IMG/VR virus record: IMGVR_UViG_3300040815_002846
Span: 1-22,717 of that record
Length of the DNA stretch: 22,717 bases
Reading direction: 5' to 3' (one strand)
Source of the DNA: a virus
Positions 423-19,438 of the stretch are shown piece after piece. Position numbers and translations under genes: made by a program. Each line of letters opens with the position of its first letter. Position 1 is the stretch's first letter. The notes under the pieces were generated by a model that searched no databases, had not been told where the DNA came from, and was given only the letters and a program-made list of their open reading frames with translations.

Positions 423-620
423 TTATTGGTCATATTGGTCATGGTAACCATAATCAAAATCGTCATGCTGTGGCAGGAAGTCAATCAAGGAGAGTTTATC
501 TTCCAGGTAGCCAATCTCATTTTTAATTGAGACCTTATCCGCAGGAGTAAGGTTTAGACTCTCATCTTTAAGAGTGGCGTGAAGAGTAGATATTTCTTTG
601 AGTATTTCGTATTTAGTCAT
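423..620 (-). CDS. Small hypothetical protein (65 aa)
   Basis: A 65-residue protein of unknown function. The first two thirds are charged and probably helical (KYEILKEISTLHATLKDES), and the C-terminus is rich in Asp, Tyr and His (HDDFDYGYHDQYDQ). Its ATG lies 11 bases after the stop of the 56-aa gene at 632-802. It has no TTGACT promoter of its own, so it is most likely the second gene of a two-gene unit started by the promoter at 809-837. Dyad element A lies just beyond its stop. There is no convincing Shine-Dalgarno sequence. I do not recognise the family. Confidence 0.6.
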   Translation of the reverse strand: MTKYEILKEISTLHATLKDESLNLTPADKVSIKNEIGYLEDKLSLIDFLPQHDDFDYGYHDQYDQ

Positions 621-631
621 ATTTTTATAAT

Positions 632-802
632 TTATCTTTGTGTAATGTGGAGCTTTTCGCCTGTTTTAGCCTTGTGCTCCATCTGTAACTTTGTTGCAAT
701 GTGCATTGCCCTTGCGTTGTTTTTGCAATTGTCGATCAATTTGCCGAACATTGAAATGTTAATCCATTCTGAGAAGTTTTTATTTCTTGTAATTGTTATC
801 AT
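632..802 (-). CDS. Small hypothetical protein (56 aa), first gene of a two-gene unit
   Basis: Read on the minus strand, an uninterrupted 56-codon frame runs from an ATG at 802-800 to TAA at 634-632. The protein begins MITITRNKNFSEWINISMFG and continues with a basic, helical part (KLIDNCKNNARAMHIATKLQ). It is easily missed because of its length and because the plus strand also carries an open frame here. Support comes from the promoter upstream: TTGACT, 17 bp, TAGTTT, then 6 bp to the ATG, the same geometry as five other genes in this block. Function unknown. The plus-strand frame across the same bases encodes a very hydrophobic string and has no comparable start signals. Confidence 0.7.
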   Translation of the reverse strand: MITITRNKNFSEWINISMFGKLIDNCKNNARAMHIATKLQMEHKAKTGEKLHITQR

Positions 803-808
803 ACTTAT

Positions 809-837
809 AAACTAAGGGAATTTTTAACTAAAGTCAA
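809..837 (-). promoter_or_regulatory. Leaderless-type sigma70 promoter for the gene starting at 802
   Basis: On the minus strand: -35 TTGACT (837-832), 17-bp spacer, -10 TAGTTT (814-809), 6 bp, then ATG at 802. The predicted transcription start coincides with the A of the ATG. Confidence 0.75.
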
Positions 838-877
838 ACTTTTTTTCAATTATTTTTGATTTATTTTTATCTTTTCA

Positions 878-944
878 TAAGTCGCTGATATTCAACGACT
901 TACGCGGGCCCGCCCGGCCTAAACCCTTGATATTCAAGGACTTA
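878..944. repeat. Dyad-GC core-dyad element, copy B
   Basis: Same architecture as copy A: a 25-bp imperfect palindrome (878-902), a 17-bp spacer of only G and C (903-919), and a second 25-bp palindrome (920-944). The right arm is identical to that of copy A, and the GC core has the same length but a different sequence. It lies between the promoter of the 802 gene and the terminator of the gene ending at 990, so it separates two transcription units. Confidence 0.85.
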
Positions 945-959
945 CGAGATAAACAAGCC

Positions 960-982
960 AAAAAAAAAGCCCCTTTCGGGGC
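960..982 (-). terminator. Rho-independent terminator of the minus-strand gene at 990-1184
   Basis: On the minus strand, GCCCC-GAAA-GGGGC forms a 5-bp all-GC stem with a GAAA loop, followed by nine T. It is immediately preceded by the perfect inverted repeat AGTTGA/TCAACT (983-999), which overlaps the stop codon. The same GTTGAATTAGTCAA word recurs beside the terminator at 2010-2030. Confidence 0.85.
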
Positions 983-989
983 AGTTGAA

Positions 990-1184
990 TTAGTCAACTA
1001 AAATTAGAGGTTCAGGCAAGGGAGTATGTGCGATATGAGCCTCTAACTCGTTGAGTTCCGCCTGTGCTATTCTGTCAAGGTCGGCTTGAGCCGCCACGCA
1101 CTGCATCATAGCCGAGCCTGAGCCGTTATTTGCTGCTTCGAGGTTGTCGTTTATAATTTGTTGTAATCTTTGTTTTTCGTTCAT
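990..1184 (-). CDS. Small hypothetical protein (64 aa)
   Basis: A 64-residue protein of unknown function, rich in Ala, Gln, Glu and Asn and probably mostly helical (QRLQQIINDNLEAANNG, then QADLDRIAQAELNELEAHI), ending in a short proline-containing tail. There is no membrane segment. The start at 1184 is set by a promoter with -35 TTGACA, 17-bp spacer, -10 TACATT and 6 bp to the ATG, so the transcript is predicted to begin at the start codon. A strong terminator follows at once, making this a single-gene unit. I do not recognise the family. Confidence 0.7.
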   Translation of the reverse strand: MNEKQRLQQIINDNLEAANNGSGSAMMQCVAAQADLDRIAQAELNELEAHIAHTPLPEPLILVD

Positions 1185-1190
1185 AAGTAT

Positions 1191-1219
1191 AATGTAAAGG
1201 ATTATTTGGCTATTGTCAA
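1191..1219 (-). promoter_or_regulatory. Leaderless-type sigma70 promoter for the gene starting at 1184
   Basis: Minus strand: TTGACA (1219-1214), 17 bp, TACATT (1196-1191), 6 bp, ATG. This is the best -35 match of the family together with the one at 2626-2654. Confidence 0.8.
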
Positions 1220-1232
1220 GCTATTTGGGGAA

Positions 1233-1505
1233 TTATTTTTCGAATATCTGTTGGATGTAGTATTGAGCATTATCGCCATCTTTGCGTTGAATGCCTGTTT
1301 GAAATTGAAGTTTAGGCTGAAGAGTGCGAACCATGCGAGCGACTTTTCGCCTTACTTCGTGTTTGTCTTCGGCTTTTATAGTTATTGAATGATGCGTTTT
1401 GTCAGTGTCAATGTATGATTTTGTGTTGCTATTCCATAAGGAAATTGCTTCGCCATTTAGGGAAGAGACATGAACGCTTGCGGTGAATGTTTTATTCTTA
1501 ATCAT
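1233..1505 (-). CDS. Small hypothetical protein (90 aa)
   Basis: A 90-residue protein of unknown function. The N-terminal half looks beta-rich (KTFTASVHVSSLNGEAISLW), and the middle is basic (EDKHEVRRKVARMVRTLQPK). It begins MIKNK, close to the MIKNN start of two other genes in the block. The shared bases run from the promoter's -10 region through the first codons (ATATATGATTAAGAAT), so the promoter and start region appear to have been copied as one unit. The promoter at 1512-1540 has the standard geometry. No terminator is obvious before the next promoter. Confidence 0.7.
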   Translation of the reverse strand: MIKNKTFTASVHVSSLNGEAISLWNSNTKSYIDTDKTHHSITIKAEDKHEVRRKVARMVRTLQPKLQFQTGIQRKDGDNAQYYIQQIFEK

Positions 1506-1511
1506 ATATAT

Positions 1512-1540
1512 AAAGTAGCATATAAATTCGTAAAAGTCAA
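1512..1540 (-). promoter_or_regulatory. Leaderless-type sigma70 promoter for the gene starting at 1505
   Basis: Minus strand: TTGACT (1540-1535), 17 bp, TACTTT (1517-1512), 6 bp, ATG. The -35 lies only a few bases beyond the stop codon of the upstream gene (1544), so there is almost no spare DNA between the two genes. Confidence 0.8.
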
Positions 1541-1543
1541 ATT

Positions 1544-1774
1544 TTATTTTGATTTATTTTGTTTTATTTCTTGAAAGGCTTTTCTTGCTTTTTGTACTGC
1601 ATTTAATGCTTCAAGAATTGTGACGCCTTGCGTGATTGTACCTTGCCAATCGGATGAATTGGATTCGCGTGCCAAGTGATTCAAGTTGCCTTCAGCTTCA
1701 GCCAATGCCAAGCCAAGATCGAGATCCAAATTTAATTCTTGTTTTATTTCTTCAACTTTATTATTCTTAATCAT
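1544..1774 (-). CDS. Small hypothetical protein (76 aa)
   Basis: A 76-residue protein of unknown function, probably all helical, with a Leu/Asp-rich stretch (LNLDLDLGLALAEAEGNLNH) and a basic C-terminus. The frame also permits a start at a TTG at 1792, but the ATG at 1774 (MIKNNKVEE) is preferred. The -10 TATGTT lies exactly 6 bp before it and the -35 TTGACT 17 bp further out, as in its neighbours. The TTG lies inside the promoter spacer and would not be transcribed. The first codons match those of the genes starting at 1505 and 2893. Confidence 0.7.
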   Translation of the reverse strand: MIKNNKVEEIKQELNLDLDLGLALAEAEGNLNHLARESNSSDWQGTITQGVTILEALNAVQKARKAFQEIKQNKSK

Positions 1775-1780
1775 ATGTAT

Positions 1781-1809
1781 AACATAGCACAAGAAACCCG
1801 AAAAGTCAA
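1781..1809 (-). promoter_or_regulatory. Leaderless-type sigma70 promoter for the gene starting at 1774
   Basis: Minus strand: TTGACT (1809-1804), 17 bp, TATGTT (1786-1781), 6 bp, ATG at 1774. It decides the start codon of the downstream gene. Confidence 0.75.
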
Positions 1810-1891
1810 ATTTTTTTTCAATTATCTTTCAACTATTTTCTTGCACAATTCAACCGCCGGAAATTGGCACGATTTCTGAACATTACTTTCC

Positions 1892-1990
1892 TAAGTTGTT
1901 GATATACAACGACTTAGGCCGGCCGGGCCGCCGTAAGTGCCTGATAGTCAACGACTTACGACAAAACTTTTACTGATAATCAACGAGTTA
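1892..1990. repeat. Dyad-GC core-dyad element, copy C, with an extra third dyad
   Basis: A 25-bp dyad (1892-1916), a 17-bp spacer of only G and C (1917-1933) and a second 25-bp dyad (1934-1958) repeat the layout of copies A and B. A third, more degenerate 25-bp arm follows at 1966-1990 with no GC core before it. The element separates the promoter of the 1774 gene from the terminator of the gene ending at 2055. Confidence 0.8.
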
Positions 1991-2009
1991 CGGCAAGAGC
2001 ATTAGGCAC

Positions 2010-2030
2010 AAAAAAGCCCACTTAGTGGGC
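2010..2030 (-). terminator. Rho-independent terminator of the minus-strand unit 2619-2055
   Basis: On the minus strand, GCCCAC-TAA-GTGGGC followed by six T. The adjoining GTTGAATTAGTCAA (2032-2045) is shared with the terminator at 960-982, so the two 3' ends look related by duplication. Confidence 0.8.
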
Positions 2031-2054
2031 TGTTGAATTAGTCAATTTTATAGG

Positions 2055-2369
2055 CTATACAAAAAACGCAAAAGGATTAGGCAATGAATTAGGCGAAGCG
2101 AACCAATCGGATGAGTCAATCACTTGCCCGTTTAGCACAGGCTCAAATTTCAATTGACGAACTCCGGCATTCACTATGCCATTAACGCGTTCGCGTGTGG
2201 TCGGTGTATTCCAACCTGCAAGCGACCATCTAACCAACCCATCAGGGTCACGCTTTACAATTGCGTTTCCATGTAGCCAAACGGTTTGCCCGTCTGTTTT
2301 AGTGTTGCCGACTTTTAAGGATTTGCCTTGCTTGAATGCTTCTTTTATTTGTTGTGTTACTTTTCTCAT
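2055..2369 (-). CDS. Hypothetical protein (104 aa)
   Basis: A 104-residue soluble protein of unknown function. The N-terminus is basic (MRKVTQQIKEAFKQGKSLKV) and is followed by a part that looks like a small beta-rich fold (WLHGNAIVKRDPDGLVRWSLAGW), then a stretch with TTRERVNGIVNAGV. It is the one sizeable gene of the block without the TTGACT promoter, so it is probably read from the promoter before the 2619 gene, 62 bases beyond that gene's stop. A short hydrophobic open frame (2430-2374) fills most of this gap. It is followed by a strong terminator. Confidence 0.7.
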   Translation of the reverse strand: MRKVTQQIKEAFKQGKSLKVGNTKTDGQTVWLHGNAIVKRDPDGLVRWSLAGWNTPTTRERVNGIVNAGVRQLKFEPVLNGQVIDSSDWFASPNSLPNPFAFFV

Positions 2370-2373
2370 ATTA

Positions 2374-2430
2374 TTATTTATTTAAACAGATTATTGCAAT
2401 GATGATTGAACAGATTATTGATGATATCAT
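2374..2430 (-). CDS. Possible 18-aa hydrophobic peptide between two coupled genes
   Basis: On the minus strand an ATG directly follows the TAA of the 2619 gene (TAAATG), and the frame MISSIICSIIIAIICLNK ends four bases before the ATG of the 2369 gene. The spacing would suit translational coupling through the operon. It is too short to trust on its own and has no Shine-Dalgarno sequence. Confidence 0.3.
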   Translation of the reverse strand: MISSIICSIIIAIICLNK

Positions 2431-2619
2431 TTATTTGCCTAGATATTGTTTTACCTGTTTGATTGTCGCGGGCAAAAGATCCGAAAAGAAAACTTCGCTT
2501 TCGATGTCTTGCTTATGATGCTTGACATACGCTATTGCCAACGCTTGGTTTGCTCGCACCACGCGAACGGCTTTATTGTTTGATTTACTATGATAGATAG
2601 CTCCGTTATTAATTTTCAT
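2431..2619 (-). CDS. Small hypothetical protein (62 aa)
   Basis: A 62-residue basic protein of unknown function (NNGAIYHSKSNNKAVRVVRA, then a helical part). The start at 2619 is fixed by a promoter with -35 TTGACA, 17 bp, -10 TAGATT and 6 bp to the ATG. It is probably the first gene of a unit that runs on to the gene at 2055-2369, since there is neither a terminator nor a promoter between them. The family is not recognised. Confidence 0.65.
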   Translation of the reverse strand: MKINNGAIYHSKSNNKAVRVVRANQALAIAYVKHHKQDIESEVFFSDLLPATIKQVKQYLGK

Positions 2620-2625
2620 ATATTT

Positions 2626-2654
2626 AATCTAATTTATTTTATTGATTGTGTCAA
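2626..2654 (-). promoter_or_regulatory. Leaderless-type sigma70 promoter for the gene starting at 2619
   Basis: Minus strand: TTGACA (2654-2649), 17 bp, TAGATT (2631-2626), 6 bp, ATG. The -35 lies 9 bases beyond the stop of the upstream gene. Confidence 0.8.
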
Positions 2655-2662
2655 ACTTTATT

Positions 2663-2893
2663 TTATGCTGTTTCTGTAGAATCAACAAAAGAGTTTATTA
2701 ACTCGACATCTAAAATGTCCCACCATTTGAAAACTTTGTCAGCGTGCGACATAAGGAAGTCGTGATCTAATTTTTGGTTTAAGTCAGCAGTGAAGCGTAA
2801 ACGCTCGGACTTGATCACGCTTGGATCGTCTTGAAATTTTGCTACAACTAACATTGTAGCGTTTTGGAATTGTATTCTGTTATTCTTAATCAT
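2663..2893 (-). CDS. Small hypothetical protein (76 aa)
   Basis: A 76-residue protein of unknown function with an N-terminal beta-like part (QNATMLVVAKFQDD) and a C-terminal part with two tryptophans (VFKWWDILDVELINS). It begins MIKNN, matching the start region of the 1774 gene. Its promoter at 2900-2928 has the standard geometry. It is the outermost gene of the minus-strand block, facing the noncoding region that separates this block from the plus-strand genes. Confidence 0.7.
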   Translation of the reverse strand: MIKNNRIQFQNATMLVVAKFQDDPSVIKSERLRFTADLNQKLDHDFLMSHADKVFKWWDILDVELINSFVDSTETA

Positions 2894-2899
2894 ATATAC

Positions 2900-2928
2900 A
2901 ATATAAAGGAAAAATTAGCTAAAGTCAA
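2900..2928 (-). promoter_or_regulatory. Leaderless-type sigma70 promoter for the gene starting at 2893
   Basis: Minus strand: TTGACT (2928-2923), 17 bp, TATATT (2905-2900), 6 bp, ATG. Confidence 0.8.
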
Positions 2929-3338
2929 GCATATCGTAAAAAAACTTTGCGTTGTAAGTATATGACAAACAAGTAGTTATGGAAACATAGAAAAAAAAAG
3001 TAAAAAAAATTTTGTAAAATTATAATTCCGGGGGGATAGTTTATTGAATTTTCATAAGTTGTTGAGTACCAGCAGGTTGCGGGGGGTGGTGTTTTTCATT
3101 CTCATTTTTAATAATTTACATTTTAAAATAATAGCTAACTAAAAAAAATCCGAAGGGAACAAAAACTAAAAAACTAAATATAAAAAACCAAAATCAACCA
3201 AAAAAAACAAAAAAACCAAAATAATAGCAACCCAAAAAAAATCGGGGAGGTATTTTCGTTAAAAGGTAAATATAAAAAAGAGTATCTCTCTAGCGCCGAA
3301 ATTGAACATATAATATAAGTGTAAAAAACACAATTCCT
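2929..3338. other. Noncoding divergence region, A-rich
   Basis: About 400 bases without a credible gene between the minus-strand accessory block and the plus-strand genes. It contains a degenerate half dyad element (3055-3079), two G-runs (CCGGGGGG near 3029 and GCGGGGGG near 3080), and a long plus-strand tract made mostly of A and C (about 3140-3235). Two short A8-TC words are each followed by a purine-rich or G-rich stretch (near 3146 and 3236). Position and composition would suit a divergent control region or a replication origin, but nothing here proves either. Confidence 0.5.
3055..3079. repeat. Degenerate single dyad, probable relic of the dyad element
   Basis: It begins TAAGTTGTTGAGTACC, like the left arm of copy C, keeps the 25-base length and runs into a G-rich stretch where the GC core would be. 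There is no second arm. It may be a decayed copy. Confidence 0.5.
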
Positions 3339-3347
3339 GTGTAATAT
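3339..3347 (+). promoter_or_regulatory. Candidate second-class (late) promoter, GTG-TAATAT
   Basis: GTGTAATAT followed 8 bases later by the ATG at 3356. The 19-base context CTGTGTAATATATAGTTAT matches the one before phoH (8678-8696) at 17 of 19 positions. There is no sigma70 -35 at the right distance and no Shine-Dalgarno sequence. Confidence 0.5.
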
Positions 3348-3355
3348 ATAGTTAT

Positions 3356-4132
3356 ATGAGTAAAAATAACGAACTTGATTTTAGTGATGCTATTCGCGCC
3401 CAGCTTAAAGAGGCGGAAGGTACAGAAGAAGAAGTAACGCAAGAAGCTTGGGCGGCCGAAGAGAAAAAAGGCAAAAAGCTTAACAAGCCATTTCGTACAT
3501 CTGGTGGACCAAAAAAGTTTTCTGTTTATGTGAAGAATGAAAAAGGCAATGTTGTAAAAGTAAATTTTGGCGATCCCAACATGGAGATCAAGCGCGACGA
3601 TCCTGCTCGTAGAAAAAGTTTTCGTGCTCGCCATGGGTGCGATAATCCTGGCCCTAAAACTAAAGCAAAATATTGGAGTTGCAAAATGTGGAGCAAAAAG
3701 AGCGTCACTAAGGTAACAAAAGGCGAAGAGCAAGCAGAAGAAGAATTTTTAGAAGAACTTGATGAGTCTGATGCCAAGAAAGGTTTATGGGAAAACATTC
3801 GTGACAAGAAAAAACGCGAAGGCAAAAATTATAGGCCCGCTAAACCTGGCGACAAAGACCGCCCCTCAAAAGACTCTTACGAAAAAGCTCAAAAGCCAAA
3901 AAAAGATAAATCCAAAGCTGAAGACGACAAAAAGTCTAAAGACAAAGGCTTAACTGAAGAGCAGAAAAAATTACCTGATGCTATTAAAAAAAGCATATTA
4001 GAAAAAAAACAAAAATCTAAAGCTGACGAAAAAGCTGGGTATCCGCCCAAATGCAACGAAGGATATGTCGAAAAAGATGGGAAATGTGTTCCAATTTCTG
4101 ATTCAGGGTACAAAAAGAAAAAAAATAAATAA
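3356..4132 (+). CDS. Lysine-rich phage protein with a conserved domain of unknown function
   Basis: A 258-residue, very lysine/glutamate-rich protein. Residues about 45-115 form a conserved-looking block (KFSVYVKNEKGNVVKVNFGD, then DDPARRKSF, ARHGCDNPGPK and YWSCKMW) that I recognise from other phage proteins, often near prohead protease or structural genes. I believe it is catalogued as a DUF but cannot confirm the number. The middle and C-terminus are low-complexity charged sequence, probably disordered. The last 35 residues hold a short motif with two cysteines (CNEGYVEKDGKC). It is the first plus-strand gene after the divergence region and is preceded by a candidate late promoter. A structural or DNA-associated role is a guess. 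Confidence 0.75.
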   Translation: MSKNNELDFSDAIRAQLKEAEGTEEEVTQEAWAAEEKKGKKLNKPFRTSGGPKKFSVYVKNEKGNVVKVNFGDPNMEIKRDDPARRKSFRARHGCDNPGPKTKAKYWSCKMWSKKSVTKVTKGEEQAEEEFLEELDESDAKKGLWENIRDKKKREGKNYRPAKPGDKDRPSKDSYEKAQKPKKDKSKAEDDKKSKDKGLTEEQKKLPDAIKKSILEKKQKSKADEKAGYPPKCNEGYVEKDGKCVPISDSGYKKKKNK

Positions 4133-4144
4133 CTTTTATTTAGA

Positions 4145-5419
4145 ATGGAAGATGTAGGATACAGCGGCCAATACCTGGACAATAAAGAATTCCGTATCAA
4201 AGTACGAACCGGAGCAAATATTCAAAATGCTACTGGTGATGCAATATGCGGCGAAATGTTTTTAGTGACAGGAGCTAATCCTGCTTTTTATGTAGCCACT
4301 TCTACGAGCAGTGATTCTACGCAAGGAATATATCACGTCATGGATTTGATAGAGCAAGTTCTACCCGCCTCAGATATCAAGGATATACAACTTGGGATTG
4401 GCAGTGTTCACGTTTTAACTCATGGTGGCGATGTTTGGTCTGCGGGAGACAACTCTTGGGGTCAGCTTGGTGACGATACAGGAAGTTATAGCTCAACCTT
4501 TGTAAAAGCTCTTATTTCTGATGTTGACCAAATAAGCATTCTTGATCAAACAATTTTTTACCTTAAAGATGACGGTACACTATGGGGTTCTGGGCGAAAT
4601 ACTCAATCGCAGATTCAATTCGGCCTTTCAGCCACTCAGGTTTTAAAGCCTACATATACGCTCGTGAGTGGTGTATCAAAGGTTAGCGCTGGATCTACTC
4701 ATGTTATATACATAAAAACGTCAGATGGAAAGCTGTATGGAAAAGGTGGCAATGGAAATTACCAACTAGGCGGCACGGGGAGCAGCTTTCCTGATTCGTT
4801 AATATACGACGGCGTTGTATCACACATACATGCTAGTAATATTGGTTCTTTTTTTGTAGACATAGCCGGCAATTTGAGCGGAATAGGCTGGCCTAATACT
4901 GGTAATGTTTTTAGCAATGGAACTCCGATTACCGCTTATCAAGGTTACGCTTCTCTGTATAGCAATATAGCTAGCTCTGTTAGCAAAGTTGCGTCCACGA
5001 CTTTTAATACTTTGATACTGAAAACTAATGGGCAATTATGGGGGTGCGGCGAGAATAATTGGGGAGAGTTAGGCTTAAATAATCAAACACAGCAAGCAGC
5101 TCCTGCGTTTATATCTAGTGACGTGTCCGACGTTTTTGCCTCAAATAGCTCTACATTTTTTATAACAACAAATGGAGAGTTAAAAGGAATGGGGCAAAAC
5201 TACAAGCAAGAGTTAGGGGGCACAGTGTATCCTATACTCACGCCCAAATTAATTGATTCAAGCGTTTCAAGAGGGACCACTCAAAATGGATCAATAATCT
5301 ACCAAAAAAATAATAATGTTTTATACGCAGGAGGCCACAATAGTGCTGGTCAATTGGGGCTAGGTAGTTTTGCTGACCCCATTGACCCTAAGCAATTACT
5401 TACACTGCCATTTCTATAA
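4145..5419 (+). CDS. Virion-type protein: shared N-module plus seven-bladed RCC1-like propeller
   Basis: A 424-residue protein in two parts. Residues 1-72 are the shared N-module (YSGQYLDNKEFRIKVRTG, ICGEMFLVTG) that recurs in the genes at 5435 and 6686. Residues about 88-424 contain seven RCC1-type repeats, each built on a G-x-[LV]-W/Y-x-x-G-x-N-x-x-x-Q/E-LG core. Examples are GGDVWSAGDNSWGQLG near 95, DGKLYGKGGNGNYQLGG near 197, NGQLWGCGENNWGELG near 295 and NNVLYAGGHNSAGQLG near 391; the fourth repeat is degenerate. Seven blades is the number of a closed RCC1 propeller. No signal peptide is seen. A tail-associated or host-binding role is inferred from context. The gene follows the 3356 gene by 12 bases without a Shine-Dalgarno sequence. 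Confidence 0.8.
   Translation: MEDVGYSGQYLDNKEFRIKVRTGANIQNATGDAICGEMFLVTGANPAFYVATSTSSDSTQGIYHVMDLIEQVLPASDIKDIQLGIGSVHVLTHGGDVWSAGDNSWGQLGDDTGSYSSTFVKALISDVDQISILDQTIFYLKDDGTLWGSGRNTQSQIQFGLSATQVLKPTYTLVSGVSKVSAGSTHVIYIKTSDGKLYGKGGNGNYQLGGTGSSFPDSLIYDGVVSHIHASNIGSFFVDIAGNLSGIGWPNTGNVFSNGTPITAYQGYASLYSNIASSVSKVASTTFNTLILKTNGQLWGCGENNWGELGLNNQTQQAAPAFISSDVSDVFASNSSTFFITTNGELKGMGQNYKQELGGTVYPILTPKLIDSSVSRGTTQNGSIIYQKNNNVLYAGGHNSAGQLGLGSFADPIDPKQLLTLPFL
4160..4299 (+). repeat. Shared N-module repeat, copy 1
   Basis: This DNA is highly similar to 5453-5590 and clearly similar to 6704-6843; words such as AGCGGCCAATAC and ATATGCGGCGAAAT are shared with copy 2. It codes for the first ~50 residues of the module in the RCC1 protein. 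Confidence 0.8.
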
Positions 5420-5434
5420 TCAATAGGTTAAATA

Positions 5435-5698
5435 ATGAACAATGACATAAACTATAGCGGCCAATACCTGGGCAATAAAGAATTTCGTATCAAAGTGCGA
5501 ACCGGAGCAGATATTCAAAATGCCACTGATGATGCAATATGCGGCGAAATATTTTTGGTTACAGGGTCTGCGCCTTCGTTATATGCAGCTAACGAAACTT
5601 CAACGGGCGGTAATTATCCAATTTATAAGGTTAAAGATTTAGTCGATAAAGTTGGGTTGGTATCAATGCTTTCTTTAAACAATAAAGGAGACGCATAG
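5435..5698 (+). CDS. Free-standing N-module protein (87 aa)
   Basis: An 87-residue protein consisting of the same module as the start of the RCC1 protein (YSGQYLGNKEFRIKVRTGAD, then ICGEIFLVTG) with a short tail (VSMLSLNNKGDA). The DNA identity with copy 1 is high, so duplication is recent or maintained by recombination. The gene ends with TAG one base before the ATG of the LamG/cupredoxin gene, whose Shine-Dalgarno sequence (AAGGAG, 5682-5687) lies inside this gene, so the two are probably co-translated. It may be an adaptor whose effector domain sits on the next protein rather than being fused, but this is inference. There is no sign that a simple frameshift split one gene into two. Confidence 0.75.
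   Translation: MNNDINYSGQYLGNKEFRIKVRTGADIQNATDDAICGEIFLVTGSAPSLYAANETSTGGNYPIYKVKDLVDKVGLVSMLSLNNKGDA
5453..5590 (+). repeat. Shared N-module repeat, copy 2
   Basis: The copy closest to copy 1 (4160-4299). The few bases before the start codon also resemble those before copy 3 (CAATGAACA...GACATAAA), so the similarity includes the start region. Confidence 0.8.
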
Positions 5699-6665: not shown

Positions 6666-6689
6666 ATGCTAAATCCTGAAAAACAATGA
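6666..6689 (+). CDS. Possible 7-codon leader ORF coupled to the gene at 6686
   Basis: ATG at 6666 follows AGGAGA (6651-6656) at a normal distance and encodes MLNPEKQ, stopping with a TGA that overlaps the ATG of the next gene (ATGA at 6686-6689). Such overlaps allow translational coupling. The alternative is that this is only the leftover start of a replaced gene. Confidence 0.35.
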   Translation: MLNPEKQ

Positions 6690-6910
6690 ACAGCGACATA
6701 AATTACAGCGGCCAATACTTAGAGGATAAGGAATTCTGTATCAAAGTGCGAACAGGCGACGACATCGCAAATGTAACGGGAGAGGCTATTTGTGGCGAAA
6801 TGTTTTTAGTTACAGGATCTAATTCTGCTTTTTATATAGCTACCGAAACTAGCACTAAAAATAGCAGCTCAATTTACAGAATAGCCGCCTTGACAGGGCA
6901 AGTAACCTAA
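6686..6910 (+). CDS. Free-standing N-module protein (74 aa)
   Basis: A 74-residue third copy of the module (YSGQYLEDKEFCIKVRTGDD, then ICGEMFLVTGSNSAFYIATE), ending shortly after it. It is the most diverged of the three at DNA level. It overlaps the 7-codon frame before it by ATGA. It is probably part of the same tail/host-interaction cluster; a role as adaptor, chaperone or decoy subunit cannot be told apart. Confidence 0.7.
   Translation: MNSDINYSGQYLEDKEFCIKVRTGDDIANVTGEAICGEMFLVTGSNSAFYIATETSTKNSSSIYRIAALTGQVT
6704..6843 (+). repeat. Shared N-module repeat, copy 3
   Basis: Clearly related to copies 1 and 2, but with more substitutions in the middle. It shares with copy 1 the GCTTTTTATRTAGC word near its end. 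Confidence 0.7.
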
Positions 6911-8717: not shown

Positions 8718-9443
8718 ATGCCAAGAAAAAAAGCAGCAAAAGATATTGACGAAGAATTTGACATTAACCCGTTTAAGTCCAAGATAGTAGTAAAAGGCAA
8801 AAAACTAAGCGACAAACAAAAAATTTTCCTGGAGCTTTCAATGAATCCAGAAACAAAAATAATATTTGTGTCTGGGCCAGCTGGAGCGACCAAGACATAC
8901 ATGGCTGTTTTTTCAGCACTAAGGCATTTGCAAAAAGATGATCAATTAGATTTACTATACGTCCGCACAGCAATCGAGAGTGCAGATAAAGGACTTGGAG
9001 CACTACCAGGCTCACTAGAAGAAAAAATTAATCCCTACATGGCTCCACTTGAAGACAAGCTCGAAGAGATGCTTCCCAAGGGTTCAGGCGTAAAGAATGA
9101 TCTTTTAAAATCCGGCAGAATACAAGCTATGCCAATTAACTTCCTGAGGGGCGCAAGTTGGTTAAATAAAATTGTTGTTGCCGACGAATCTCAAAACTTT
9201 TCGTTTAGGGAGCTGGTAACCATGACAACTAGAATCGGCGAAAACACAAAACTTTTTGTATGCGGCGATATGATGCAAAGCGACATTGGCAGCAGAAGTG
9301 GATTTGCAGATATGTTCGATTTATTTAACGATCCAGTAAGTAAAGAAAAAGGTATACATTGTTTTAAGTTTAATGAAAATGATATATTTAGAAGTGAAAT
9401 ATTAAAGTATATAATAACTAAATTAAAGACATACAAAAAATAG
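8718..9443 (+). CDS. phoH: PhoH-like P-loop ATPase
   Basis: A 241-residue PhoH-family ATPase, a family very common in marine phages. Its role in infection is unsettled; it is linked to phosphate starvation or RNA metabolism by homology only. After a basic N-terminus (MPRKKAAKD), the core starts with LSDKQKIFLELSMNPETKII. The Walker A is GPAGATKT (53-60), with Thr where the classical loop has Gly, similar to the GPAGTSKT form I know from phage PhoH. YVRTAIESADKGLGALPGSL (81-100) is a family signature, the Walker B is VVADE (153-157), and the sensor-like LFVCGDMMQSDIG follows (179-191). It lacks the extra N-terminal PIN domain of the long PhoH forms. It starts a plus-strand run with the GAF-like, zinc ribbon and sigma genes. 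Confidence 0.9.
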   Translation: MPRKKAAKDIDEEFDINPFKSKIVVKGKKLSDKQKIFLELSMNPETKIIFVSGPAGATKTYMAVFSALRHLQKDDQLDLLYVRTAIESADKGLGALPGSLEEKINPYMAPLEDKLEEMLPKGSGVKNDLLKSGRIQAMPINFLRGASWLNKIVVADESQNFSFRELVTMTTRIGENTKLFVCGDMMQSDIGSRSGFADMFDLFNDPVSKEKGIHCFKFNENDIFRSEILKYIITKLKTYKK

Positions 9444-9451
9444 TGTACTAA
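9443..9451 (+). promoter_or_regulatory. Candidate second-class (late) promoter, GTG-TACTAA
   Basis: GTGTACTAA, five bases, then the ATG at 9457. The motif begins at the last base of the phoH stop codon. Confidence 0.45.
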
Positions 9452-9456
9452 AAAAT

Positions 9457-10086
9457 ATGGATGGATTATATATAATATGCTCTGCGTTAATTGGTGCTGC
9501 GGCCACGATTACTAGTGTTCTTATTTCTCGCAAGAACAAAAGGGATAAAGAAAAAAGTATTAATCCGATACTAAGTGAAACCCAAAACAACGAAAACATT
9601 TACACCGCTTTAGATTTCGTTATGAAAGAAATGAATGCCGATAGGGCTTATATTTTACAGTTTCATAACGGGGGATATTATATGTCTGGCCGAAGTCAGC
9701 AAAAATTTAGCTGCACTCATGAAATGGTGGAAAAAGGGATCAGTAGAGAGTGTGAGTTTTCTAAAAATCATATAGTTTCTAATTTTCATAGATACATAAA
9801 TGAATTGATTACTGAGGGTAAATTCGCCTATCTAGATGCTGAAAATGTATCCGACCATAGTTTTTCTCTCATGATGGAAAACAAAGGAATACGGAGCATA
9901 TACAACATACCTATAAAAACTCTCAATAATACAGTGATTGGAATACTAGGAGTTGATTATATAAAAAATTGCGCATCAAAAGATTCTATTGGTTTTTGCA
10001 GCATAGAGCAAAAGGAAAATTTTAATGATCAAACCGACGAATTCATGAAGAGACAGGCTAGGGTAATAGCCGGCTATCTAATATAA
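9457..10086 (+). CDS. Membrane-anchored GAF-like protein
   Basis: A 209-residue protein with one N-terminal membrane segment (about residues 4-23, LYIICSALIGAAATITSVLI) followed by a basic stop-transfer stretch (SRKNKRDKEK), so the rest should face the cytoplasm. From about residue 45 it resembles a GAF-type sensor: ALDFVMKEMNADRAYILQFH, NGGYYMSGRSQQKFSCTHEM, then IRSIYNIPIKTLNNTVIGIL and GVDYI. The NADRAYILQFHNGG phrase is familiar from phage proteins of this kind. No output domain (kinase, cyclase, HTH) is present. It may sense a small molecule at the host membrane or act as a binding protein; the ligand is unknown. It sits between phoH and the transcription genes and has its own candidate promoter. 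Confidence 0.65.
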   Translation: MDGLYIICSALIGAAATITSVLISRKNKRDKEKSINPILSETQNNENIYTALDFVMKEMNADRAYILQFHNGGYYMSGRSQQKFSCTHEMVEKGISRECEFSKNHIVSNFHRYINELITEGKFAYLDAENVSDHSFSLMMENKGIRSIYNIPIKTLNNTVIGILGVDYIKNCASKDSIGFCSIEQKENFNDQTDEFMKRQARVIAGYLI

Positions 10087-10129: not shown

Positions 10130-10471
10130 ATGCAAACAATATTTTGTACAGAATGCGGAGCAAAAAACGAATACTCTGGAGCGAAGCCAAAGTTTTGTTC
10201 TTCTTGTGGGACCCCAATGAGTCCAAGCGCCAATAAAACTAACAAGCAGGAGGTGGCAAAAAAAAATCCTTCGGCCAGGAAAGCTTCTAGTTTTAAAGAA
10301 CAGATGGAGGCTAGAAAGAAATCTAGGGATTCTTCGCAAGAAGATGAAACCGATATAGAGTACGTGCCAAATATCTCATCCTTGAGTTACGAAATAATAA
10401 AAGGGGGCAATCCGGTACATAATTTTAAAGACATAGTAAATGCCCCAGAAAAAAACAAAGAATCAGAATAG
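10130..10471 (+). CDS. Zinc-ribbon protein (113 aa)
   Basis: A 113-residue protein with an N-terminal zinc ribbon (Cys6, Cys9, Cys23, Cys26 in CTECG ... CSSCG), then a basic, probably disordered linker and an acidic part with hydrophobic spots (DIEYVPNISSLSYEIIKGGN). The frame could begin at a TTG at 10100, but the ATG at 10130 places the ribbon at the usual N-terminal position and lies 9 bases after a TATAAT (10115-10120). Its last 32 bases overlap the start of the sigma gene in another frame, so the two are co-translated. The pairing suggests a transcription co-factor, but nothing in the sequence proves it. Confidence 0.7.
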   Translation: MQTIFCTECGAKNEYSGAKPKFCSSCGTPMSPSANKTNKQEVAKKNPSARKASSFKEQMEARKKSRDSSQEDETDIEYVPNISSLSYEIIKGGNPVHNFKDIVNAPEKNKESE

Positions 10472-11225
10472 TAAGGGCGATAAGGAAAGCGAAGATTTGG
10501 CCAAACGAGAAAAAAAAGCCAAATACGAAGATTTTCAAGAAGTAATAGACCAAGAGCTTAAGAAAAGAAAAAGAAATTGGTTTTTAAATTCGGTTGCATG
10601 GATTGACTTTGATGATGTGTCCCAGATAATTAGGTCTCACATTTATAAAAAATGGAACCAATGGGATCAGAGCCGTCCAATTAAACCATGGTTAAATAAG
10701 ATTATAGCCAATCAAATGAAAAACATATTGCGTAATCATTACAGTAATTATGCTCGCCCATGTTTAAATTGCCCATTTAACAATGACGCTCAAATGGACC
10801 TATGCAGTTTTACTGCGTCAGGCAACCAGGATAATTCATGCCCTTTATACAAAAAATGGGAAAAAACAAAAAAACATGCTTACAATGTTAAAATAACATT
10901 ATCTTTAGATAATCATATGCATGAAATAGATGGAAATTCAGATAGCCATTTAACTATGGACATACAAACCGCTTCGGATAAATTATTTAAAGAGCTAAAA
11001 GACTGCCTTAGCGAACGTCAGTTTAAAGCTTTTGAATTATTATTTATTAAAAACTTATCAGATGAAAAAGTGGCAGAAATGATGGGGTTTAAAAGTACGG
11101 AATCAGGTAGAAAGGCTGGCTATAAACAAATTAAAAATTTAAAAAAACTTTTAAAGGAAAAAGCGACTAAAATATTACAAAAGAAAGGGATAGCATTTTT
11201 GGGCGATGAAAATAAAATTATCTGA
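10440..11225 (+). CDS. Phage sigma factor (sigma70/ECF-like) with four-cysteine insertion
   Basis: A 261-residue sigma-70-family protein. Residues about 45-103 match sigma region 2 (WIDFDDVSQIIRSHIYKKWN, QWDQSRPIKPWLNKIIANQM, KNILRNHY), which binds the -10 element and core polymerase. Residues about 178-245 match region 4 (LKDCLSERQFKAFELLFIKN, LSDEKVAEMMGFKS, then a basic recognition helix), the -35/core-binding helix-turn-helix. Between them lies an insertion with Cys108, Cys111, Cys122 and Cys134, probably a zinc site. There is no region 1 or 3, as in ECF factors and phage late sigma factors. Its start overlaps the zinc-ribbon gene and its end overlaps the next gene by 20 bases. It is the obvious candidate reader of the GTG-TANNNT/A motif. 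Confidence 0.85.
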   Translation: MPQKKTKNQNSKGDKESEDLAKREKKAKYEDFQEVIDQELKKRKRNWFLNSVAWIDFDDVSQIIRSHIYKKWNQWDQSRPIKPWLNKIIANQMKNILRNHYSNYARPCLNCPFNNDAQMDLCSFTASGNQDNSCPLYKKWEKTKKHAYNVKITLSLDNHMHEIDGNSDSHLTMDIQTASDKLFKELKDCLSERQFKAFELLFIKNLSDEKVAEMMGFKSTESGRKAGYKQIKNLKKLLKEKATKILQKKGIAFLGDENKII

Positions 11226-15750: not shown

Positions 15751-15779
15751 TTGGACTTTGAGCTCGTTTGGTGTACTAT
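15751..15779 (+). promoter_or_regulatory. Candidate promoter of the portal gene: TTGGAC, 17 bp, GTG-TACTAT
   Basis: GTGTACTAT (15771-15779) lies five bases before the ATG at 15785, and here a -35-like TTGGAC is found exactly 17 bp upstream of TACTAT. It decides the start codon of the portal gene. Confidence 0.5.
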
Positions 15780-15784
15780 CTAAT

Positions 15785-17818
15785 ATGCCAAGAAAATATA
15801 ATAAGAAATCCGAATATTGGAATAAATTTGAATCCAGCGCAAAAAGCGATAACAGTAATGATTTAAATTCTCTATTGAGTAAAGCTGAGTCTACAGAGCA
15901 AATCAAGCCAGCAACCGCAGGAGAGTCTTACTATGCGCAAGCAAACTACTCGAGAAATGTAGGACAAATAGAAGACAGAGAAGGTACAAGATTTAGGTCA
16001 AACAGAGCTTCTAGGCCACCAAAGAAAGACAAGTACGCTAACATACATGATAGTGGGTTACCTTATTCTTATAAAGATTCTTATGTAACCCCAAGAGTAT
16101 CCATTGAGCTATGCCAAAAAGCATATGCAAATGTACCCATCTTTAGAAACGCTATCGATGTTATGGCTGAGTTTTCTAATTCTGACTTATATTTAGATGG
16201 AGGCTCAGAAAAAGCAAAATTATTCATTGAAAAATGGATGCAGAAAATAAAAATTTGGAAATTAAAAGATCAATATTTTAGAGAGTATTATAGGTCAGGT
16301 AATGTTTTTATGTATAAACTTGACGGTAAATTCACTACTGAAGATTTAATTAAACTTAATCAGGTATATGGGTCAGAGGCAAAAAACGTAGGCTCAAAGA
16401 AAATACCTGTTGGTTATGTATTCCTTAATCCGTATGATTTTGTTGCAGACCGAGCATTGACTTTTAGCTCTAAAAATGGAATTTACAAAAAAATCCTAAG
16501 CGAGTATGACATCGAAAAATTAAAATTTCCTCAATCTGACTACGATAAGGAAATGTTTGAAGCGTTGCCCGATAAAGCAAAAAAGAAAATTAAAGAGAAT
16601 CAGTTTATGAGCGATGGCATCATGGTTGATTTAGATCCTAATAAATTATTATTTTCATTTTATAAAAAACAAGATTATGAGCCTTTTGCTATTCCTTTTG
16701 GTTTCCCTGTACTGGATGATATAAACTGGAAGATGGAGTTAAAGAAAATCGATCAAGCTATAACTCGTACCATTGAGAATGTTATACTGCTTGTTACGAT
16801 GGGTAATACTCCTGATAAAGGCGGAGTTAATCCAAACAATTTAAAAGCAATGCAAGCTTTGTTTCAGAATGAAAGTATCGGAAGAGCTTTAATTGCGGAT
16901 TATACCACTAAAGCTGAATTTGTTATTCCTGATTTAAATAAAGTTCTTGGCCCGACTAAATACCAAATTGTCAACGAGGACATTAAAGAAGGTTTACAGA
17001 ATATAATTGTAGGTAAAGAGAACTACTCAAGTACGCAAGTTAAAGCGCAGATTTTTCTCGAGAGGTTAAAGGAGGCTCGTAATGCGTTCCTTAATGATAT
17101 TAAGGATGAAGTTCAGTTACAAAGAGTTACTTCTAGACTTATTGAAATGGGTATTATTACGCCGGAACAAGGAATGACAGCCCTAAAGCAGGGTGTATAT
17201 CCAGACCCCGAAGATCTTCGCTCTGCGCAAGAAAGACTCGTCGAGGACAGAGAAAAAGGTTACTATACCCCATTATCTATATCTCAGCCAATCTTAAGTG
17301 AGGAAGACCAAGAGATGAAGGAAGAGCAACATGAAATGAGTATCGAACAGCAAAAGACCTCCCAGGAACAAATAAAGAAGGCTCCTCAGCCCGTAGCTCA
17401 ACCAAGCCAACCGCAGCCTGCCGTTAAAAAAGATAATGGTCGTCCAGCTGGAACAACCACAAAGCCAAGTGGGATTTTCGCATCTGACGAAGTTCATAGC
17501 AGAAAAAACATTCAAGAAGTAGTATATAGTATAGAGGCTTTACGTAAGCAGGCTGAATCAGAGCTAAAGACACACTACAATAAAAAGAGGTTATCTAAGG
17601 AGCACAAAGGAATGATAGATACTTTAGTTGAGAGTGTTGTTATGTCTACAGAGCATCAAGAGTGGAAGCAGGCATTAAGTTCTTGCATTGAAGATTTTAA
17701 TAATATAGAAAATTTAAATATTATGTCTGATGTTTTAGATATTTCTCAACAGCATGAAATTGTATCTTATCCTGCTGCTATACTTTATCATAGTAAAAAA
17801 ATAAATATTGAAGATTAA
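15785..17818 (+). CDS. Portal protein
   Basis: A 677-residue portal (head-tail vertex ring) by position and pattern. The core (about 100-430) has PIFRNAIDVMAEFSNSDLYL, IWKLKDQYFREYYRSGNVFM and YVFLNPYDFVADR, then IENVILLVTMGNTPDKGGVN and IIVGKENYSSTQVKAQIFLE, typical of T4 gp20/SPP1-type portals. A Gln/Glu/Pro-rich linker (about 510-570) precedes a helical C-terminal domain. A TTG at 15758 would add nine residues, but the promoter motif lies between it and the ATG at 15785, so the ATG is chosen. It is followed by the protease-scaffold gene in the usual head-gene order. Confidence 0.88.
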   Translation: MPRKYNKKSEYWNKFESSAKSDNSNDLNSLLSKAESTEQIKPATAGESYYAQANYSRNVGQIEDREGTRFRSNRASRPPKKDKYANIHDSGLPYSYKDSYVTPRVSIELCQKAYANVPIFRNAIDVMAEFSNSDLYLDGGSEKAKLFIEKWMQKIKIWKLKDQYFREYYRSGNVFMYKLDGKFTTEDLIKLNQVYGSEAKNVGSKKIPVGYVFLNPYDFVADRALTFSSKNGIYKKILSEYDIEKLKFPQSDYDKEMFEALPDKAKKKIKENQFMSDGIMVDLDPNKLLFSFYKKQDYEPFAIPFGFPVLDDINWKMELKKIDQAITRTIENVILLVTMGNTPDKGGVNPNNLKAMQALFQNESIGRALIADYTTKAEFVIPDLNKVLGPTKYQIVNEDIKEGLQNIIVGKENYSSTQVKAQIFLERLKEARNAFLNDIKDEVQLQRVTSRLIEMGIITPEQGMTALKQGVYPDPEDLRSAQERLVEDREKGYYTPLSISQPILSEEDQEMKEEQHEMSIEQQKTSQEQIKKAPQPVAQPSQPQPAVKKDNGRPAGTTTKPSGIFASDEVHSRKNIQEVVYSIEALRKQAESELKTHYNKKRLSKEHKGMIDTLVESVVMSTEHQEWKQALSSCIEDFNNIENLNIMSDVLDISQQHEIVSYPAAILYHSKKINIED

Positions 17819-17827
17819 TTTATATTA

Positions 17828-17836
17828 GTGTATTAA
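17828..17836 (+). promoter_or_regulatory. Candidate promoter of the protease-scaffold gene: GTG-TATTAA
   Basis: GTGTATTAA lies nine bases before the ATG at 17846, with a TTGAAG exactly 17 bp upstream of TATTAA (17808-17813). Confidence 0.45.
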
Positions 17837-17845
17837 TATTTTAAC

Positions 17846-19438
17846 ATGAGTTTACCTTTTAAGTATATATGTAAGTTTTCTGAAAGTGTTGTAGCCTCTA
17901 GCCCGAAAAGCGAGCAGATTGAATCATTGGCATCTGTTGACTCTTTAAGAGATATAATACCACAAGATATTGACTTTAGTAAGAATATTGATTTAGTTGG
18001 TGTTGCGTTTAATGGCGCAGTAGCAAATATGTTCAATAAAAATGGTGACGGAATTGACACCGAAACTGCTTTAGCTATTAAAGACTATTTTATTCACAAG
18101 CCAACCAATATCGAGCATCAGCGCAAAAAAGTTGTTGGTCATGTTGTCGGGGCTTCATTGTCTAAGTTTGGAACAAATGAATTGATCAGTGAAGAGGAGG
18201 CTGCTTCTAGCGATGAACCTTTTAATATTGCACTATCATCCGTTGTATATAAAACAGTTAACCCCGAATTTGCGGAACTGGTTCAAAAGTCAGTCGACGA
18301 AGAGAGTGAGCTTTATCAAAAAGTTTCAGCGAGTTGGGAAATTGGATTCAATGATTACGTAATCGCAGTTGGAAGCAAAAATTTAAAAGATGCGATAATA
18401 ATAGACGGTGAAGAGCAAAAAGAAGAATATAAACAATTTTTAAAAGCTTACGGCGGAAACGGCAGGGATGAAGATGGACAAGAAGTTCATCGACTAATTA
18501 TTGGAGACATCTATCCGCTTGGAATTGGCTTTACAGCTAACCCAGCGGCCGAAGTAAAAGGTTTAACTGTAGACGAAGATAGCATTAGGCAATTCAAATT
18601 AAAAGACAATGCAGAAAGCTCCATTTACGAAAAAATAGAAATAAATAATAAAAAAAGTTCCCATTTAAAAGAAGGCAATGTAATTCTAAACAAGAACTTA
18701 AAACCTAATAAGATTATGGAAAAAGAAATTTTAAAACAAGTAACAGAAACTTTAGAAGCTCAAGCTTCTTCTAAGAAACTTTCTGAAGAGGCTATCGCCA
18801 ACATCACTAAAGTTTTTCATGATGCTATCATTCAAAAAAATGACCAATGGCAATCAGACAAAGAAGAAATGAACAAAGAAAAAGAAGAACTCATTCAAGC
18901 TTCTGAGGAATCAAAGCAAACAATCGAATCTTTAAAAGAAGAGATTGCCGCGATGAACGAGCAAATTGAAACTCTTAAAACCGAAGCAGCTGCAAAAGAA
19001 GCTTCCGAGAAATTCAACGACAGAATGAGCCAACTTGATGATGATTTTGAATTAGAAGACGAAGATCGTATCGTTCTCGCTTCTGAGCTTAAATCTCTTG
19101 ATTCTACTGACGAAGCTTTTGCTGAATACAAAGAAAAGCTTTCTGTTATGTGGAACCATAAAACTAAAGCATTTAAAGAAGAGCAACAAAAAGCTATTGC
19201 AGCTAAAGTTGAAGAGCAGGTTCAAAAACGAATCGCAGAACTTTCTTCCGCAAGCGAATCTACAGAAGAAGTAGCAGAAGAGGCAACCGAAGAGGTTGTT
19301 GAAGAAGCTATCGAAAATGTAGAAGTTGAAGAAGAAGTTGTTGCCAACAATAATGGTGACGCAACTCAAGACGAACTTTCTATCAGGGAAAAATTTAAAC
19401 AAGCTTTCTCGAAAGACAACGTAAACATTCAATACTAA
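17846..19438 (+). CDS. Prohead protease fused to scaffold
   Basis: A 530-residue fusion. The N-terminal ~230 residues look like a T4 gp21-type prohead serine protease: VGVAFNGAVANMFNKNGDGI, then KPTNIEHQRKKVVGHVVGAS with the candidate catalytic His91, and YQKVSASWEIGF with Ser161 or Ser163 as nucleophile. The block ends in IGDIYPLGIGFTANPAAEVK. From about residue 290 to the end it is long coiled coil rich in Glu, Lys and Ala (EEMNKEKEELIQASEESKQT), then a very acidic tail, typical of a scaffold core. Met291 (18716) could be an internal start for a free scaffold, as in lambda C/Nu3, but no Shine-Dalgarno sequence is evident before it. The gene stands in the canonical place between portal and capsid. 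Confidence 0.85.
   Translation: MSLPFKYICKFSESVVASSPKSEQIESLASVDSLRDIIPQDIDFSKNIDLVGVAFNGAVANMFNKNGDGIDTETALAIKDYFIHKPTNIEHQRKKVVGHVVGASLSKFGTNELISEEEAASSDEPFNIALSSVVYKTVNPEFAELVQKSVDEESELYQKVSASWEIGFNDYVIAVGSKNLKDAIIIDGEEQKEEYKQFLKAYGGNGRDEDGQEVHRLIIGDIYPLGIGFTANPAAEVKGLTVDEDSIRQFKLKDNAESSIYEKIEINNKKSSHLKEGNVILNKNLKPNKIMEKEILKQVTETLEAQASSKKLSEEAIANITKVFHDAIIQKNDQWQSDKEEMNKEKEELIQASEESKQTIESLKEEIAAMNEQIETLKTEAAAKEASEKFNDRMSQLDDDFELEDEDRIVLASELKSLDSTDEAFAEYKEKLSVMWNHKTKAFKEEQQKAIAAKVEEQVQKRIAELSSASESTEEVAEEATEEVVEEAIENVEVEEEVVANNNGDATQDELSIREKFKQAFSKDNVNIQY

Follow-up and report, generated by a model that had tools for sequence, protein, structure and literature searches.

Why should six small viral genes, each apparently read from its own promoter, all place the start codon at exactly the same distance from that promoter? 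The question is raised by a 22,717-nucleotide (nt) stretch of DNA, IMG/VR virus record IMGVR_UViG_3300040815_002846 (hereafter, the window), which covers the complete 22.7 kb record and is probably a genome fragment. An initial annotation, made from the letters alone, had described six sites of the form TTGAC[AT]-N17-TANNNT-N6-ATG on its minus strand, had attributed their fixed geometry to selection, and had predicted that the corresponding mRNAs lack a 5′ leader. The six sites were borne out, and the gene starts given for them (802, 1184, 1505, 1774, 2619 and 2893) are correct:

800–837, minus strand: promoter of gene 632–802 (−35 TTGACT 837–832, −10 TAGTTT 814–809, ATG 802–800)
1182–1219, minus strand: promoter of gene 990–1184 (−35 TTGACA 1219–1214, −10 TACATT 1196–1191, ATG 1184–1182)
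1503–1540, minus strand: promoter of gene 1233–1505 (−35 TTGACT 1540–1535, −10 TACTTT 1517–1512, ATG 1505–1503)
1772–1809, minus strand: promoter of gene 1544–1774 (−35 TTGACT 1809–1804, −10 TATGTT 1786–1781, ATG 1774–1772)
2617–2654, minus strand: promoter of gene 2431–2619 (−35 TTGACA 2654–2649, −10 TAGATT 2631–2626, ATG 2619–2617)
2891–2928, minus strand: promoter of gene 2663–2893 (−35 TTGACT 2928–2923, −10 TATATT 2905–2900, ATG 2893–2891)

These are very probably promoters of the sigma-70 type that are joined to the start codon at a fixed distance and would give rise to leaderless mRNAs. The elements are of the expected kind, with TTGACA-like −35 and TATAAT-like −10 hexamers separated by 17 ± 1 bp, and even a looser pattern, TTGACW-N(16–18)-TANNNT-N(4–9)-ATG, matches the window at the same six sites only, each of them a minus-strand site with a spacer of 17 and a gap of 6. 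The initial annotation had suggested a comparison with shuffled sequence; in 100 dinucleotide shuffles of the window, the looser pattern was matched 0.17 times on average, at most twice, and never 6 times.

The geometry is a property of the whole phage clade to which the window belongs. A PhoH search yielded 50 related loci, and in these loci together with the window, the histogram of spacer length against distance to the ATG displays one large peak, at 17/6, comprising 72 sites. The pattern is present in 16 of the 18 parent records, which include two of about 194 and 200 kb, and its reversed version is nearly absent. More extensive counts were obtained from ~697 kb fetched from 12 related phage records which, with the window, amount to ~719 kb in 13 records (genes outside the window were called with a simple, purpose-written caller). 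This sample contains 258 sites of the form TTGAC-N17-TANNNT, against 63 and 64 at spacings of 16 and 18, respectively, and 159 of the 258 lie 5–10 nt upstream of an ATG with an open frame of 40 or more codons. The distance is exactly 6 nt for 106 of these, 7 nt for 21, 8 nt for 13, 5 nt for 9, 9 nt for 6 and 10 nt for 4; farther out, ~1–2 sites occur per position. The same peak is formed by a TTGC variant of the −35 box (40 sites), and sites with a 16-nt spacer peak at gaps of 7–8 nt, nearly preserving the distance from the −35 box to the ATG. Removal of similar spacers leaves 104 sites, 68 of them at gap 6. Given that the excess at spacing 17 is ~195 sites (258 minus the chance level of 63) and that 159 sites are located 5–10 nt from an ATG, it appears that the majority of such promoters in these phages yield mRNAs with no leader or almost none.

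Additional phage records fetched by the promoter pattern contain, for example, 20 sites against 0 in controls (203 kb) and 18 against 0 (45 kb). When IMG/VR was scanned with nothing but a stricter version of the promoter, 80 stretches were checked among the matches listed; 30 of these encode relatives of window proteins and hold many further gap-6 sites, and most of the remaining ones have single sites, as the selection itself would produce. An exact 21-base promoter search of IMG/VR gave no match. One stretch, IMGVR_UViG_3300035204_000621 (25.9 kb, 46% G+C in the part examined), contains at least 10 leaderless-type sites and did not match, by blast, any of the window proteins tested; it possibly represents a distant group that shares the promoter style.

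Chance or base composition could be invoked, given that the region is AT-rich and that such sequence often yields TANNNT, which on its own is common, as well as ATG. This explanation is refuted, however, by the shuffles and reversed patterns, by permuted −35 words, which produce no distance peak in the ~719 kb, and by cellular genomes: 249 genomes sampled from the phylum of one proteobacterial metagenome-assembled genome (MAG) and 100 sampled from the family of a flavobacterial MAG typically contain 0–3 sites per multi-megabase genome, similar to the reversed-pattern control, so that bacterial DNA in general does not share the site density of the phages. The probability that remains for chance is negligible.

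Comparison of orthologues points in the same direction. The geometry of all six window promoters recurs in orthologues: the −35 box, the −10 box and the ATG are mostly retained, the spacer has diverged, and the gap is mostly 6, sometimes 5 or 8. In some orthologues, the promoter element is lost or takes the TTGC form, and the sole distant orthologue of gene 2663–2893 has a TTGCAA form of the −35 box. Together with the peak at a single distance, the conserved geometry around diverged spacers supports the claim of the initial annotation that the geometry is under selection.

Where, then, does the RNA begin? Counted back from the A of the ATG, the TTGAC box begins 35 nt upstream, the textbook position for transcription starting at this A. 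In sigma-70 numbering, TTGACA occupies positions −35 to −30 and the −10 hexamer positions −12 to −7, so that a 6-nt gap puts +1 on the first base of the start codon. Transcription usually starts at a pyrimidine-purine step, and in 96% of the non-redundant gap-6 sites, a T or C immediately precedes the ATG, compared to 518 of 908 other ATG genes. In the position matrix of the non-redundant sites, an A/T tract upstream of the −35 box, a T at −18 and an A-rich stretch after the ATG stand out; the fraction of A in the codons following the ATG is 0.61 in the promoter-ATG genes versus 0.48 in other genes. The Bacteroidetes promoter numbering, T−12 and A−11 (PMC6847099), places +1 on the same base. 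A Bacteroidetes sigma-ABfr promoter, with the consensus TTTG / TAnnTTTG (PMC6847099), was considered and rejected, because in the matrix TANNNT is followed by A (0.60) and then T (0.51) rather than by TG.

The translation signals match. Shine-Dalgarno words precede 4.5% of the promoter-ATG genes, exactly as in shuffled sequence (4.5%), whereas other ATG genes of the same phages have them in 19.6% of cases versus 8.0% in shuffled sequence, with a peak 10–14 nt upstream. Of the 108 ATGs at the 6-nt distance, 106 begin an open frame of 40 codons or more, and GTG and TTG starts account for just 2 cases at the same position. Thus, the characteristic −10 distance of leaderless genes (6 nt in 106 of the 159 near sites), the lack of a Shine-Dalgarno sequence and the AUG start are all seen here, and the leaderless messages predicted by the initial annotation withstood each of the sequence comparisons made: Shine-Dalgarno words are not in excess, the start is nearly always ATG, the base at −1 is mostly a pyrimidine and the open frames are long. 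Most likely, +1 is on the A of the ATG or within 1–2 nt of it.

Several observations nevertheless weigh against this interpretation. To begin with, 44 of the 159 near-ATG sites have gaps of 7–10 nt, so that a leader of 1–4 nt is possible, and bacterial start sites vary by 1–2 nt; the promoters could accordingly be of a short-leader kind, with transcription starting 1–4 nt upstream of the ATG and leaving a vestigial leader. This is made improbable by the T or C at −1 and by the one sharp peak, which lies at 6 nt, the gap for which the A would be the canonical start. Next, a same-strand gene lies upstream of 120 of the 134 promoter-ATG genes, at a median gap of 40 nt, and read-through could therefore also yield leadered copies. 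Taken further, the sites could be promoters whose mRNAs are not leaderless, either because the true translation starts lie downstream or because the translated messages start upstream and the promoters are bystanders. AT-rich stretches of the window do yield many weak promoter-like matches (12 versus 11.5 expected), and a generic promoter scanner fails to separate these sites from the background, for which reason it was not used as evidence. But protein conservation starts from the ATG in most orthologues, the ATGs at the 6-nt distance almost always open long frames, the −35 and −10 boxes are kept at the ATG in orthologues, and terminator-like hairpins end two of the units, and we consider this scenario unlikely. 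Furthermore, four of the six window promoters (802, 1505, 1774 and 2893) are weakly alike over 78 nt (63–74% identity to a reference copy), and three of the four also share ATGATTAAGAATAA at the start. Because of this extended similarity, the six sites are partly non-independent, an objection that is removed by the 68 non-redundant spacers at gap 6 across the clade. Finally, no close cultured relative was found.

If promoter and start codon are indeed joined in this way, TTGAC(A/T) and TANNNT would be recognized by host RNA polymerase before the phage sigma factor is made, RNA synthesis would begin at the A of the ATG such that each message opens with AUG, and ribosomes would initiate on this 5′-terminal AUG with neither a 5′ leader nor a Shine-Dalgarno sequence. 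Phage-borne initiation machinery was considered and set aside: bS21 was not detected in ten phage records and IF3 was not detected in six.

The plus strand of the window encodes the terminase, a portal-position gene, capsid-type genes and a PhoH protein, and the minus strand carries the small-gene block. The members of the block and its hairpins are as follows, with the ratio of nonsynonymous to synonymous changes (pN/pS) where available:

632–802, minus strand: small early-type gene, 56 aa, predicted leaderless; orthologues found, pN/pS 0.07
990–1184, minus strand: small early-type gene, 64 aa, predicted leaderless; pN/pS 0.06
1233–1505, minus strand: small early-type gene, 90 aa, predicted leaderless; orthologues as distant as 35% identity
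1544–1774, minus strand: small early-type gene, 76 aa, predicted leaderless; pN/pS 0.15
2431–2619, minus strand: small early-type gene, 62 aa, predicted leaderless; pN/pS 0.02
2663–2893, minus strand: small early-type gene, 76 aa, predicted leaderless; pN/pS 0.10 (one orthologue)
2055–2369, minus strand: second cistron after 2431–2619, 104 aa, without a promoter of its own; resembles cyanophage Gp96 (PF23790)
423–620, minus strand: second cistron after 632–802, without a leaderless-type promoter here (orthologue comparison)
969–982, minus strand: terminator-like hairpin 3′ of gene 990–1184
2015–2031, minus strand: terminator-like hairpin 3′ of gene 2055–2369

The small open reading frames (ORFs) of the block are real genes: differences between orthologues are mostly in third codon positions, with pN/pS of 0.02–0.15 (1233–1505 and 423–620 did not qualify for this test). 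Apart from 2055–2369, protein family profile searches gave no convincing match for the products. The block would comprise six transcription units, namely, 2893; 2619 followed by 2369; 1774; 1505; 1184; and 802 followed by 620. Since two of the eight genes are second cistrons, the initial annotation somewhat overstated the case in speaking of a whole gene block. Orthologues of gene 423–620 at two related loci (L051 and L078) have a leaderless promoter of their own, which suggests that promoter-gene units get reshuffled. Gene size, position and promoter type point to early expression of the block.

A 73-nt interspersed repeat occurs within and next to the block, at 348–420, 875–947 and 1889–1961, in copies that are 79–88% identical and consist of two palindromes flanking a GGCCGGGCC-like core; its TTGATANTCAANGACTTA part is present in 41 fetched loci. 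Elsewhere in the window, three neighbouring genes, 4145–5419, 5435–5698 and 6686–6910, have a common start of the form YSGQYLxxKEFxIKVRTG, suggestive of duplicated or rearranging modules.

A second promoter class is apparent upstream of long genes. The word GTGTA is enriched 14–18 nt before the ATG of such genes (70 sites, 55 of them non-redundant, with a median ORF of 268 codons), and control words are flat. This class has no −35 element, and the downstream genes include the portal-position gene and other structural genes. In the window, the respective elements and a possible reader are:

15771–15787, plus strand: GTGTA element upstream of portal-position gene 15785–17818, 14 nt from its ATG
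17828–17848, plus strand: GTGTA element upstream of gene 17846–19438, 18 nt from its ATG
9443–9459, plus strand: GTGTA element upstream of gene 9457–10086, 14 nt from its ATG
3339–3358, plus strand: GTGTA element upstream of gene 3356–4132, 17 nt from its ATG
10440–11225, plus strand: sigma-factor-like protein (phrog_1740, E 1.2e-4; Sigma70_r2, E 8.3e-5, below the Pfam cut-off)

Sigma70_r2 was detected in 10 of the 10 related records tested. GTGTA would then be a late promoter, with the phage sigma-like protein as its candidate reader, and if transcription starts where it does for a −10-type element, messages of this class would have leaders of only a few nt. A wider reading, which we put forward tentatively and regard as somewhat more doubtful than probable, is that transcription is mostly leaderless throughout the clade, with an early TTGAC class read by host polymerase and a late GTGTA class read with the phage sigma factor, both starting RNA within a few nt of the ATG, and with Shine-Dalgarno sequences used mainly inside operons.

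The kind of records and relatives returned by the searches, rather than sample metadata, indicates that the clade is apparently marine. A 6.3 kb contig binned in a Flavobacteriaceae MAG is 98% identical over 2.5 kb to a clade member, and is either a weak hint at the host or a binning error. A search by terminase found no match in genome contigs, nor in 299 Flavobacteriaceae genomes, and matches to the phage GDP-mannose dehydratase are spread over mixed MAGs and are not decisive. The TTGATANTCAANGACTTA part of the interspersed palindrome, considered as a host clue, gave just 2 single matches among 398 sampled bacterial genomes. A related ~200 kb phage encodes a complete transfer-messenger RNA (tmRNA) with the tag AESSQRVVDLDSIELGLEMAA (L068:10645–11043, minus strand) and has a manA cis-regulatory RNA motif (L076:9577–9777, minus strand).

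With more than 100 sites in 13 records, the clade offers a natural set in which the start codon and the transcription start are apparently locked together by selection, and, for many very small genes that may be missed or given a wrong start by gene callers, it predicts the start codon exactly. If the interpretation is true, this phage lineage bypasses Shine-Dalgarno for its small early-type genes while its other genes use it, and would be a system in which to ask why and when leaderless translation is favoured.

How do these promoters compare with known ones? In a bacterial survey, TANNNT ~12 bp before the start codon was treated as a mark of leaderless genes (PMC3160421); the phage sites are like these TA-led genes in the position of TANNNT, but the latter are cellular genes, and few Bacteroidetes and alphaproteobacterial genomes were flagged in that survey. 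In Deinococcus-Thermus, TANNNT fixed a few bp before the ORF, as in the phages, has been experimentally tied to leaderless expression, and a −35 box 17 bp upstream strengthens the −10 motif (PMC12340547). Most Deinococcus-Thermus genes with the motif lack a classical −35 box, however, whereas the phage sites carry one (and were found by it). Sinorhizobium meliloti has 171 leaderless mRNAs, all of which begin with AUG (PMC3616915), resembling the start on the first base of AUG predicted here, but these belong to cellular genes, of which they make up a small fraction, and do not form a promoter class of a phage.

In a literature search that covered few subscription journals, we found no report of such promoters for a marine phage clade. 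The view of the initial annotation that a leaderless phage gene block would be unusual is fair, although a precedent exists: for Thermus phage phiYS40, most middle and late transcripts are described as leaderless, with host IF2/IF3 shifted (Sevostyanova et al. 2007, as summarised in PMC3594737). Among the annotated genes of phiYS40, we computed a TANNAT peak at −13/−12, in 10 of 59 coding sequences. By this description, phiYS40 and the present clade share a whole leaderless class in a phage, predicted in our case, with the −10 element at the same place before the start codon. The host of phiYS40 is a thermophile from a phylum rich in leaderless genes, whereas no close cultured relative was found for the present clade; and the phiYS40 class is middle/late, whereas that of the clade is early-type and has a strong TTGAC −35 box. 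The leaderless principle is thus already known, and what is notable here is the number of sites, the fixed −35 box and the association with an early-type gene block.

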